A DNA stretch of 32,944 nt from Deltaproteobacteria bacterium (lineage in GTDB: Bacteria; Desulfobacterota; Syntrophobacteria; BM002), in NCBI GenBank assembly GCA_022340905.1, contig JAJDNB010000164.1, forward strand, positions 1-32,944. The letters run 5' to 3'. The translations under genes and the position numbers were made by a program. This document shows, piece after piece, positions 15,705 through 23,660 of the stretch. A model generated the notes under the pieces. It ran no database searches and had not been told where the DNA came from. It saw only the letters and a list, made by a program, of their open reading frames with translations. Within the stretch, counting starts at the first letter, position 1, and each line of letters starts with the position of its first letter.

Positions 15705-16111
15705 AGTAATTTTCTACCCTTTGAAAAAGCAACAATGGATGTTGGGAATCAAGCATTTCAACCCCCGGCCAGGGGTACCTACGCCATCATCACCCTTCTG
15801 GCAATATCTCTTATTCTTTCCATATTAACTAGCCTGGATGTTGCACCAATTGCTTACTAAAGCCTCTCAGCTGGGAAGCAAGATGTTTTCTTAAGGTTCC
15901 AAAGCAGTACCTAAAAAATATCTCGTATTAGGCATGAATCTTGAACGTCCGTCACCGTGATCTTAGCTTACGCGCACTGTTTCACTTCTCACCTTCCAAA
16001 GCGTCAGGCAACTAATGTATCTTGAAAAAACAGTTAACCACCTCTGTTAATCGAAGCCGTGCTGCGAAATGACGCAATTTTGGTAGTGCCACTTGAGGAC
16101 AAGGAGAAAAA
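15705..16111. other. Spacer between tRNA terminator and receiver gene
   Basis: Apart from the doubtful 41-codon frame at 15735-15860, I see only the AAGGAG ribosome site just before 16112. Confidence 0.4.
15735..15860 (+). CDS. Possible 41-residue single-helix membrane peptide or gene remnant
   Basis: An ATG at 15735 opens 41 codons: a polar start, then a hydrophobic stretch (TYAIITLLAISLILSILTSL) long enough to span a membrane. There is no convincing ribosome site. It could be a small membrane protein, the decayed N-terminus of a multi-pass protein such as a rhomboid-like protease, or chance. Confidence 0.2.
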   Translation: MDVGNQAFQPPARGTYAIITLLAISLILSILTSLDVAPIAY

Positions 16112-16810
16112 ATGGCCACATACTCCCTTTTAAAAAACAGATCTCTTACCATATTAGTCGTAGAGGACGATGCCGAGCTTAGAGAAATCTTACAGGTCGA
16201 ATTCGAACTCGAGGGCTTGACGGCTATTACTGCCACAAATGGCAGTGAAGCTGTTACCACAGTTCGGAAACTTAAACCTGATTTAATATTAATGGATATA
16301 ATGATGCCAGGGATGGATGGTATCGAAGCCACGAAAATTGTCAAAAGTAATGAAGAAACTAAACACATTCCCATAATAATGCTCACTGCTTCAGGAAATA
16401 GAGATGACATTGTCGCCGGACTTGAGGCAGGCGCAATCGATTATATAACCAAACCGTTCTTCATGCCCGAGTTAAAAGCTCGCCTGAAGTCGGTGCTTCA
16501 GCATAAAGTAATGTATGACGAACTAAAGAGAATCCAGGATACGTTAATAAGAAGGGAGCGACTACAAACTATAAAGGAACTTACTGAGACATTTCAAGGA
16601 TCCATCAATGGACCGCTTACCGTGATTCTTGGCAGGATACATCTCCTCAAGAAAAAAAACGGCAAAATAGCTTGGGAAGACTTAGAGGCATTGCAAAAGG
16701 CGGCGGATAAAATAAAAGAGATAGTGAATCATCTGGGCATCATGGAGTGGATGTATCCATTGCCCCTCTTGAATGATATTGATTTTGTTGACCTACCCTT
16801 CCTCAACTAA
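16112..16810 (+). CDS. Receiver-domain protein with degenerate histidine-kinase dimerisation helix
   Basis: 232 residues. Residues 12-130 are a complete receiver: acidic pair D19/D20, phospho-acceptor D62 in LILMDIMMPG, T92 and K114. Residues about 148-215 resemble the DHp helix pair of histidine kinases (RRERLQTIKELTE, INGPLTVILGRIHLL), but at the position of the phospho-acceptor His the sequence reads FQGSINGPL instead of a canonical AHEINNPL, and no ATPase domain follows. So it can be phosphorylated but cannot be a kinase. It may dimerise through the helices or interact with kinases. It has a good AAGGAG site and no DNA-binding domain, and it is not in an operon. Confidence 0.87.
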   Translation: MATYSLLKNRSLTILVVEDDAELREILQVEFELEGLTAITATNGSEAVTTVRKLKPDLILMDIMMPGMDGIEATKIVKSNEETKHIPIIMLTASGNRDDIVAGLEAGAIDYITKPFFMPELKARLKSVLQHKVMYDELKRIQDTLIRRERLQTIKELTETFQGSINGPLTVILGRIHLLKKKNGKIAWEDLEALQKAADKIKEIVNHLGIMEWMYPLPLLNDIDFVDLPFLN

Positions 16811-16917: not shown

Positions 16918-17340
16918 TTACATGCGAATCATCCGGCTTACCTGGGAATCAACGCATTTGTATATCTCTTCGTCGGTACCGTAAATATCCACGATTGTCC
17001 GGTGGTTGATCAGGGTCTCGATGATAAAGGCGGTGAGGTAGAGACTGATGAAATTGGGACGACGAACGATGGTCCTCAATGGGGCGATCCGGTACTGAAC
17101 GTCAAAATCTTCCGCTGATATCAGTGTCTTGATACATCCAGCCAGCTGGCGCTCCAGCTCTTTCTTGTTCTTCGTTTCTATGAGTCTGTCCTCAATCAAC
17201 TTCATGGCGATCCGATTCGCCAGATCATCTACTACCTCATACAGCTGACTAATTGCTCCTGCTCTTGCTGCTTCCTTAGCAGAGTCCAGCCGGGATATGA
17301 CATTGCTTTCTCTCACATTTGGTCTATAGTCTCTTGCCAT
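16918..17340 (-). CDS. Conserved-looking protein of unknown function
   Basis: 140 residues from the ATG at 17340, preferred over a TTG at 17355 because GAGGTG lies eight bases upstream of the ATG. It is mostly alpha-helical and charged, with no signal peptide, clear membrane helix or known catalytic motif; a single Cys at about residue 68 and one near 126. The stretch RRPNFISLYLTAFIIETLI is the most hydrophobic part. It follows the PilZ gene by 60 bases on the same strand, so the two are probably one operon and this protein may act with or downstream of the PilZ protein. I do not recognise the family. Confidence 0.72.
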   Translation of the reverse strand: MARDYRPNVRESNVISRLDSAKEAARAGAISQLYEVVDDLANRIAMKLIEDRLIETKNKKELERQLAGCIKTLISAEDFDVQYRIAPLRTIVRRPNFISLYLTAFIIETLINHRTIVDIYGTDEEIYKCVDSQVSRMIRM

Positions 17341-17400
17341 CTCTTCACACCTCAAACCAGTTCTTCGCCAAAACTCTTTCCGACGATTTCATTGTATTGA

Positions 17401-18000
17401 CTATTCACCAGGGCTGCATTCCTCTAGGAAATTTGTCAGTGCTCTTCGAACGTCCTCCTGCATTGGCAAGAAATGCACGCCAACAATATAGCCTTCGCCC
17501 TTGTCTTTAGGTCTCGACCACACTACTTCTCCCTTCAAGGGAATGGTACCATGGCGCGATGAATTCAGCTTAGTATGAAAGATACTTCCAACTTTAAGTT
17601 TAGTCAACGAGTGTAACCTCATTCCTCCCATGCTGAGGTTCAGTATCCTAATGTTTTTCTCTTGGAAAACTTGGGTAAAAAGATCCTCACCCTCTGAAAC
17701 ACTGTGCCTCAGATGCTGGCGTCGCTCCGGCAGTCTTACCTGAATACTGGCGCCCTTGATGAGAGCATAAAGGTAGTTTACCAGACTGGTAAACCGAGCG
17801 GTATCTTCAGTAGACCCGTTTTGTTCTAAATTATACTCAATGGTTTCCTGGAGATCGGCAATGCCGCTAAGCAGCTCATCCAGCTGGGTCTTTCGCTCTC
17901 TGTTCATTCCAGAGGTGTTGATAATATTGATCAGGGGGCGGAGGGTAAATTTGATTTTTTGTTCGAAAAGATCAAGCTTTTCTTTGGTGGGACCTCCCAT
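17401..18000 (-). CDS. PilZ-domain c-di-GMP receptor with helical N-terminus
   Basis: 199 residues: an all-helical region 1-90 with coiled-coil character, then a PilZ domain from about 90 to 195. The c-di-GMP contacts are present: R94-x3-R98 and NLSMGG at 121-126 (N replacing the usual D). It should change partner binding when c-di-GMP binds. It is the first gene of a two-gene unit with the unknown protein downstream. A promoter-like pair lies at 18070-18098. The helical N-terminus probably mediates dimerisation or partner contact. Confidence 0.88.
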   Translation of the reverse strand: MGGPTKEKLDLFEQKIKFTLRPLINIINTSGMNRERKTQLDELLSGIADLQETIEYNLEQNGSTEDTARFTSLVNYLYALIKGASIQVRLPERRQHLRHSVSEGEDLFTQVFQEKNIRILNLSMGGMRLHSLTKLKVGSIFHTKLNSSRHGTIPLKGEVVWSRPKDKGEGYIVGVHFLPMQEDVRRALTNFLEECSPGE

Positions 18001-22709: not shown

Positions 22710-23660
22710 ATGAATCAGAAAGGTAATACTCCTTACACCATTCTTTCTGTGGACGATGACACGGAAATGGCTGCCTTGCTCCACGAAGTGGTAAGCCAGT
22801 TGGGGCACACCAGTGTCACCGCAGTAGATGGTGTCGATGCATTAGAAAAGCTCGGAGAACGCCAGTTCGATATGGTCATAACCGATATTGCCATGCCAAG
22901 AATGAACGGAATCGAACTGACGAAAAGAATCAAGACCGATCTAGAGGACGTGGATGTAGTTGTTGTCACTGGATACCAGGACAAATACAAGTACACCGAT
23001 GTCATAGAAATCGGCGCTAGCGACTTCATTTCCAAGCCCTTTAACATCAATGAACTGGAGGCGAAGATCAACCGAATCATCCGTGAACGTGAACTGCGGG
23101 CCGAGCTCAAAAGACTGTCCATCCGCGACGGCCTCACCGGTCTCTATAACCGTCGGTACTTTGATGAAAACTTGAAAAGGGAAGCAATCCGTGCTTTCCG
23201 GCAGCACTATGGCCTCTTTCTTCTTCTGGTCGATGTTGATAATTTCAAAAACTACAATGATCAGTTCGGCCACCAGAAGGGGGACGATCTACTCAAGGAA
23301 CTGGCCAGATTAATGATGCTATACAGCCGCGACAACGTTGATTCAGTCTACAGATACGGGGGTGACGAGTTTGCTGTGATCATTCCCCATGCCGAACCCC
23401 AACAAGCAATGATGGTTGCTAAAAGGCTGAGAAGCAAGTTTAACGCGAGTGATCTCGGCCCCGCATCTCTTAGTATGGGAATGGCCCGATTGGAAGGTAA
23501 ACTGAAATCCTTAGAGCAAGATTTAGAAAACCTGCTGCGCACGGCAGACCAACACCTATATATGGCCAAGAACAACGGGGGCGATCAGATTCGTGCGGCA
23601 GGGGAAAATGCCCGCACGCAAAACTCACCATATAACCAACCAAGCTACCAGCAAACCTAA
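22710..23660 (+). CDS. Receiver-GGDEF response regulator (diguanylate cyclase)
   Basis: 316 residues: receiver domain 8-125 with acidic residues D15-D17, phospho-acceptor D59 in MVITDIAMPR and K109, then a GGDEF domain from about 135 with DGLTGLYNRRYF and active site RYGGDEF at 215-221. It is a PleD/WspR-like cyclase, probably activated by phosphorylation. The inhibitory site is off-register: SRDNVDSV gives RxxxD rather than RxxD. The C-terminal 25 residues are unstructured. The ribosome site before 22710 is poor. Confidence 0.94.
   Translation: MNQKGNTPYTILSVDDDTEMAALLHEVVSQLGHTSVTAVDGVDALEKLGERQFDMVITDIAMPRMNGIELTKRIKTDLEDVDVVVVTGYQDKYKYTDVIEIGASDFISKPFNINELEAKINRIIRERELRAELKRLSIRDGLTGLYNRRYFDENLKREAIRAFRQHYGLFLLLVDVDNFKNYNDQFGHQKGDDLLKELARLMMLYSRDNVDSVYRYGGDEFAVIIPHAEPQQAMMVAKRLRSKFNASDLGPASLSMGMARLEGKLKSLEQDLENLLRTADQHLYMAKNNGGDQIRAAGENARTQNSPYNQPSYQQT

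Follow-up and report, generated by a model that had tools for sequence, protein, structure and literature searches.

The gene P0001, on the forward strand of the window (the whole stretch of 32,944 nucleotides analysed here), raises the question of what a response regulator may do when its receiver domain (REC) is followed by a kinase-type DHp hairpin with neither the phospho-acceptor His nor the ATPase (CA) domain of a kinase. The open reading frame (16112..16810, +) starts at an ATG preceded by a Shine-Dalgarno-like AAGGAG, read directly from the sequence (16101..16106, +), and encodes 232 residues arranged as REC, helix, His-less DHp and short tail, an architecture that rests on Pfam matches and on full-length copies in five congeners. 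The receiver covers residues 13-125 (16148..16486, +), with a Pfam Response_reg (PF00072) match of 1.1e-30 on residues 14-125. Its signature of an acidic pair, an Asp, a Thr/Ser and a Lys is present as D19/D20, D62, T92 and K114, all of which, together with Y111, are invariant in the alignment of the six orthologues. Asp62 (16295-16297, +) is the phospho-acceptor by position. The closest solved and named receivers are those of PleD and of the PhoB/OmpR type, whose outputs are GGDEF or DNA-binding domains, whereas the output of P0001 is a DHp. A Foldseek search with the P0001 model gave receiver domains as its best 50 matches and nothing informative for the DHp.

Behind the receiver, a helical linker continuous with REC alpha5 (residues 126-157; 16487..16582, +) leads into DHp helix 1 (residues 158-181; 16583..16654, +), which carries the dead H-box and is followed by a turn, DHp helix 2 (residues 188-208; 16673..16735, +) and the C-terminal tail (residues 209-232; 16736..16807, +). 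In the AlphaFold model, a monomer based on 33 sequences with a mean pLDDT of 83, one helix joins REC alpha5 to DHp helix 1 over residues 118-181, and another extends over 188-207; confidence is lower in the DHp (block means of 64-73), low from residue 211 and below 50 over the last 22 residues. The Pfam HisKA model matches residues 165-208 with 18.2 bits, short of the family cut-off (26.9), and both Response_reg and HisKA are matched at E<=0.1 in all six orthologues, P0001 included. The helical hairpin, a feature of HisKA kinases, is present by the monomer model and by these HisKA matches. The H-box reads QGSINGPL (FQGSINGPL with the Phe in front), compared with xHExxNPL in kinases. As outlined in PMC3510030, in the HisKA motif H-E/D-x-x-T/N the acid at H+1 is kinase-specific and the Thr/Asn at H+4 phosphatase-specific. 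By this motif P0001 has Gly163 (16598-16600, +) in place of the acceptor His, Ser164 at H+1 and Gly167 at H+4: the His, the acid and the H+4 Asn are all gone, and their three replacements are invariant in 6/6 orthologues. Despite the loss of these catalytic positions, PLTVILG and the helix pattern are preserved. The relay His of a Spo0B/ChpT-type phosphotransferase is likewise absent from this H-box.

No HATPase_c match at E<=0.1 was found anywhere on the contig of the window, and 107 bp separate P0001 from its convergent neighbour. A local CA profile, made from 86 kinases of the fetched loci and able to detect the kinases in L140 and L147 as a control, found no CA remnant at E<=1 in the six frames of the window, of the five congener loci or of the locus of a paralogue described below. 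The original prediction had described a complete receiver, an H-box FQGSINGPL without His, a missing ATPase domain and a kinase-type ancestry of the DHp, and these descriptions all hold; as to its interpretation, the ancestry and the His loss stand, whereas the absent ATPase domain is not peculiar to P0001, CA-less DHp proteins with the His in place occurring in at least 44 genomes of the phylum (see below). The roles it had proposed, a dimerising decoy, a kinase inhibitor or a phosphate sink, are candidates, and the outcome it had named as refuting, that P0001 is simply a truncated gene, was not obtained. In the source genome, 48 of the 52 HisKA matches are followed by a HATPase_c match at a distance of up to 600 bp (below the cut-off in three of the 48), and the four exceptions are P0001, C109 (REC-DHp-REC-GGDEF), C85 (DRRSG repeats followed by a DHp) and C83 (a small DHp). 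Kinase-like proteins without a HATPase domain are also mentioned for Archaeoglobus in the census PMC1183210.

The disabled form of P0001 is conserved among close relatives. Full-length matches (1-232) were obtained in 6 of the 12 family genomes, namely the source genome and five congeners. The congener orthologues are 70-84% identical to P0001 overall and 65-81% in the DHp part, which argues that this DHp is not due to chance. The alignment of homologues proposed with the original prediction indicates that the His loss is itself conserved: the H-box is QGS[IV]NGPL, or further QGS[IV]NGPLT, in all six orthologues, and PFLN forms the C-terminal end in five of the six. The gene order around P0001 (NarL-type gene, 145-aa gene, PilZ gene) is the same in the five congeners. 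In G005, the match comprises the last 31 residues of P0001, beside a run of N. Two genomes were left out of the absence count: G001, where neither flanking gene was matched, and G004, where the contig ends 286 bp past the flanking gene and these 286 bp hold no P0001 end, the gap between this gene and P0001 being about 86 to 336 bp in other genomes. G009 and G011, which belong to two further genera of this family, have the 145-aa gene with no P0001 adjoining it within the stretch read, and the family's three other genera all lacked a match at E<=1e-6 in the DHp search; P0001 therefore looks like a trait of the genus.

Mean pN/pS over 15 pairs, obtained by simple counting with synonymous differences near saturation, is 0.14 for the REC, 0.19 for the linker, 0.23 for the DHp, 0.28 for the tail and 0.185 overall, and the DHp value points to a dead module that is still constrained. 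Since close relatives in the genus keep the same disabled form, P0001 is probably a working control part and not a broken gene. Neither the class search (55 genomes) nor the family search (12 genomes) gave an orthologue with both His and CA; 80 loci from an earlier search, matched mainly via the REC, lay outside the one-by-one check for a CA. A REC-PAS-DHp protein of G011 (L236), with an intact His, a REC 53% identical and an additional PAS-like stretch, was rejected as an orthologue; it runs off its contig, where any CA would be out of view.

In the window, P0001 has no same-strand neighbour near enough to suggest an operon partner. The 145-aa protein (16918-17355, -) is strongly conserved, with 82-95% identity among congeners and 71-83% in three other genera of the family (one copy being partial), and has no Pfam or NCBIfam match at E<=0.01. 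Its gene is adjoined by one for a PilZ-domain protein (17401-18000, -). The window also has a REC-GGDEF gene (22710-23660) and a GGDEF gene (9595), which with the PilZ gene suggest a c-di-GMP neighbourhood.

DHp proteins without CA form a wider class. CA-less REC- or PAS-DHp proteins, mostly His-bearing and with a short C-terminal tail of consensus YxxGxxIIDIDxSS (Y..G..IIDID.SS), occur in at least 44 genomes of the phylum. A profile of nine rows, three of them P0001-type (A2), was searched over 247 genomes of the phylum; as a DHp profile would be expected to, it matched every one of the 247, and many of the best matches listed were short proteins with the tail covered. The loci read comprised 30 from this search and 40 more stretches picked for tail coverage, 7 of which are wider views of earlier loci. 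Most DHp proteins in the 40 stretches end about 64-84 residues past the H-box, with a tail of the consensus type and no G-box. Class members (L153-L220, for example L165, L179, L161 and L153) are linked to PAS or REC, or take the form REC-DHp-tail-REC-GGDEF. Proteins of this last form, or parts of them, were recognized by appearance in 8 of the 30 loci and in C109 of the source genome, with their domains checked by Pfam for C109/L147 and L153.

A second profile was built from 43 CA-less proteins outside the genus, L054, L063 and L106 having been dropped from the first 46. Among the matches listed, 65 rows without G-box cover the tail, where rows are distinct open reading frames, some nearly identical, and CA absence was judged mostly by the G-box pattern rather than by a full domain search. 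The acceptor column holds His in 61 of them, which come from 44 genomes (43 being seeds picked by a His-requiring pattern and 18 free of this bias), and the four His-less rows are P0001 orthologues. All 83 rows with a G-box have the His. P0001 itself, L022, the G006 paralogue and L145 are His-less too, with a match that ends before the tail. In two His-bearing REC-DHp genes of the phylum, L200 and L207, the 3' end is overlapped by an open frame for a CheY-like receiver, an arrangement that would suit a relay from one receiver to another.

P0001 has the class architecture, i.e. an input domain and a DHp, no CA and a C-terminus soon past helix 2, and lacks the conserved His. Seven proteins of the same phylum for which no name was found (L165, L204, L184, L193, L208, L200 and L207) have, like P0001, a REC followed by a DHp hairpin and no CA, and end about 60-70 residues past the H-box, as P0001 does. 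REC and DHp are above the Pfam cut-offs in all seven, and they keep the His (HE in six, HQ in L208) where P0001 has Gly. Among such His-bearing proteins, L165 is the best blastp match, with 33% identity over residues 14-228. Alignments with L204, L208, L193 and L184 also reach residue 228 of 232, and those with L200 and L207 reach 179. The E-values (6e-36 for L165) are those of a search of a few dozen open reading frames, with scores that owe much to the REC.

The DHp core alone fits CA-less and kinase profiles about equally well. In P0001 it scores 49.6 bits with the CA-less profile and 45.5 bits with a kinase profile for which 32 of 86 CA-bearing sequences were used (the ones outside L051-L130) and 54 left out; this is a difference of 4 bits, compared with 19-66 for members of the 43. 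Across the orthologues the difference runs from +5.6 to -2.2, and the paralogue stands at -4.1; the kinase profile is favoured by one orthologue and by the paralogue. In a tree read without support values, the P0001 clade lies between the CA-less and kinase groups, next to L184 and at the edge of the kinases. As for the tail, the CA-less profile extends into it in 4/6 orthologues, the match ending at column 83 in P0001 and at 86 in L022. The core of the tail (DFVDL in P0001) has its best fit at the DIIDI register in all six orthologues, with shuffle p values of 0.004-0.025 in register and 0.03-0.14 when six registers are allowed. The log-odds of the whole tail are negative in all six, and the tail of the G006 paralogue has no fit to the motif. 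P0001 has at most a tail remnant, whereas the CA-less REC-DHp proteins have a clearer tail; DFVDL is a possible weak remnant of the class motif, standing for DIIDI. Judged by these comparisons, descent of P0001 from the CA-less class is likely, if not proven: the protein probably belongs with the CA-less REC-DHp proteins and has lost its relay His, although DHp core and tail, taken by themselves, do not decide this.

P0001 is not the only DHp of this kind. The G006 paralogue is 51% identical to it overall and 40% in the DHp part, which identifies its DHp by homology; it reads QESNDNRL, with Q-x-S kept and the His absent. A REC-GGDEF gene lies on the same strand little over 100 bp downstream of it and is 60% identical to the REC-GGDEF at 22710 in the window. 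In other congeners, no His-less REC-DHp was found beside REC-GGDEF genes of this type, so that the link between paralogue and REC-GGDEF is a single case, and the c-di-GMP network as partner of P0001 is a weak lead. A REC-PAS protein of the sister genus G009 (L235:1384-2478, -) has a REC 52% identical to that of P0001 and a DHp-like end, recognized by eye, that reads MANDFND with Asn for His; the local CA profile found no CA in the six frames of its stretch. Pfam HisKA has no match at E<=0.1 in this protein or in the paralogue. The small DHp C83 (L145:1000-1239, G000:C83; 80 aa), with Val for the acceptor His, was matched in all 9 genus genomes searched and in G011. Its copies in the genus have Val (8/9) or Ala (1/9) at this position and keep the E at H+1 and the N at H+4, in open frames of 70 to 311 aa whose start is sure for the shortest; C83 may be a docking protein or a receiver phosphatase of minimal size. 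Also observed were small proteins in which DRRSG-type repeats precede a CA-less DHp (L144:2235-2696 and L134:3451-3990), with SHLxxQPLTVI and Leu at H+1; their genes are adjoined by a REC gene with an HD-GYP-like domain. It could be imagined from P0001, the paralogue, L235 and C83 that the lineage has repeatedly turned CA-less DHps into dead docking domains, pseudo-phosphotransferases competing with live DHps for receivers, and that a response regulator output here would consist in occupying another regulator rather than in DNA binding or enzyme activity; we regard this generalization as doubtful.

For P0001 itself we tentatively favour, at somewhat below even chances, a response regulator with a dimerising, non-catalytic DHp output, descended from the CA-less REC-DHp-tail proteins, in which Asp62 gates docking without phosphotransfer. 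In that ancestor, the His of the DHp would have served for relay or for docking. A cognate kinase would phosphorylate Asp62 of P0001, this would change the REC and the continuous helix and through them the DHp bundle, and the bundle would dock on partner receivers (or on a kinase DHp) and block or hold the partner with no phosphotransfer. From the intact REC residues we infer that Asp62 could be phosphorylated; dimerisation is predicted from the DHp fold, docking is suggested by the kinship and by the conserved former H-box, and the inhibitory or scaffold outcome is a guess.

Two other explanations are close rivals of this docking regulator. The first, in our estimate unlikely but a serious competitor, is that the dead DHp acts on an intact kinase, which it would block or redirect by heterodimerising with the kinase's DHp or by docking there, with REC phosphorylation as the gate. 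The hairpin and hydrophobic pattern kept alongside lost catalytic residues would fit such a role, as would the many HisKA kinases of the genome (the 48 of 52 matches above), and precedents are outlined for GacS with another sensor kinase (PMC5992135), for DivL (PMC4211667) and for Osp acting on CckA (PMC9430884); however, the window has no kinase gene, there being no HATPase_c match on its contig. It is about equally improbable that the DHp is a dimerisation stalk only, P0001 being a CheY-like receiver or phosphate sink and the conservation of the helices reflecting bundle packing. The full receiver, the lack of any catalytic position in the DHp and the stronger conservation of the REC (pN/pS of 0.14 vs 0.23) agree with a stalk, but the former H-box QGSxNGPL is among the most conserved DHp stretches, which packing alone would not obviously need. 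In kinases, the H-box is a docking face. Far less probable is a DHp that still acts as a relay through a new phospho-acceptor, either Ser164 (H+1) or some other His: Ser164 and Gln162 are conserved in the six orthologues and the G006 paralogue, but the seven proteins share no His in linker or DHp (the paralogue has Tyr for H131 and Lys for H207, the G006 orthologue Ala for H177), which makes a new acceptor residue unlikely, and Ser is not known to be an acceptor in HisKA relays. Finally, a decaying, mis-assembled or truncated kinase gene, to which the weak HisKA score might point, can hardly be credited and was rejected: five other genomes hold full-length copies in synteny, which share the same end point, selection is purifying, and no CA was found in six frames.

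If the docking regulator is the right reading, a receiver-controlled, non-catalytic DHp would join the list of response regulator outputs, a DHp could persist as a pure docking module after losing both CA and His, and P0001 would be a natural His-less form of the CA-less DHp class. The analysis also brings out this class itself, with its conserved tail and its presence in at least 44 genomes, for which phosphotransfer, phosphatase activity and the use of another kinase's CA are candidate roles. Titles and abstract openings, from a literature that covered few subscription journals, gave no description of a receiver joined to a DHp that lacks both His and CA.

Among known systems, ChpT and Spo0B retain the His along with a degenerate CA-like domain, and DivL keeps its CA domain and has no REC. 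P0001 would resemble ChpT (the subject of PMC3433190) and Spo0B in having a DHp-type dimer used apart from kinase catalysis, and differs from them in having no His, no CA-like domain and a REC. With DivL, a pseudo-histidine kinase (PMC4211667), it would share the use of a kinase-derived part as a docking or sensing module. The REC-like protein Osp, described as an inhibitor of CckA (PMC9430884), is a receiver protein acting on a kinase transmitter, similar to the role proposed for P0001, but it is a single-domain protein without DHp, whereas P0001 has both REC and DHp. Docking modules derived from kinases (DivL), DHp phosphotransferases that work as dimers (ChpT and Spo0B) and kinase-inhibiting receivers (Osp) are thus already known.
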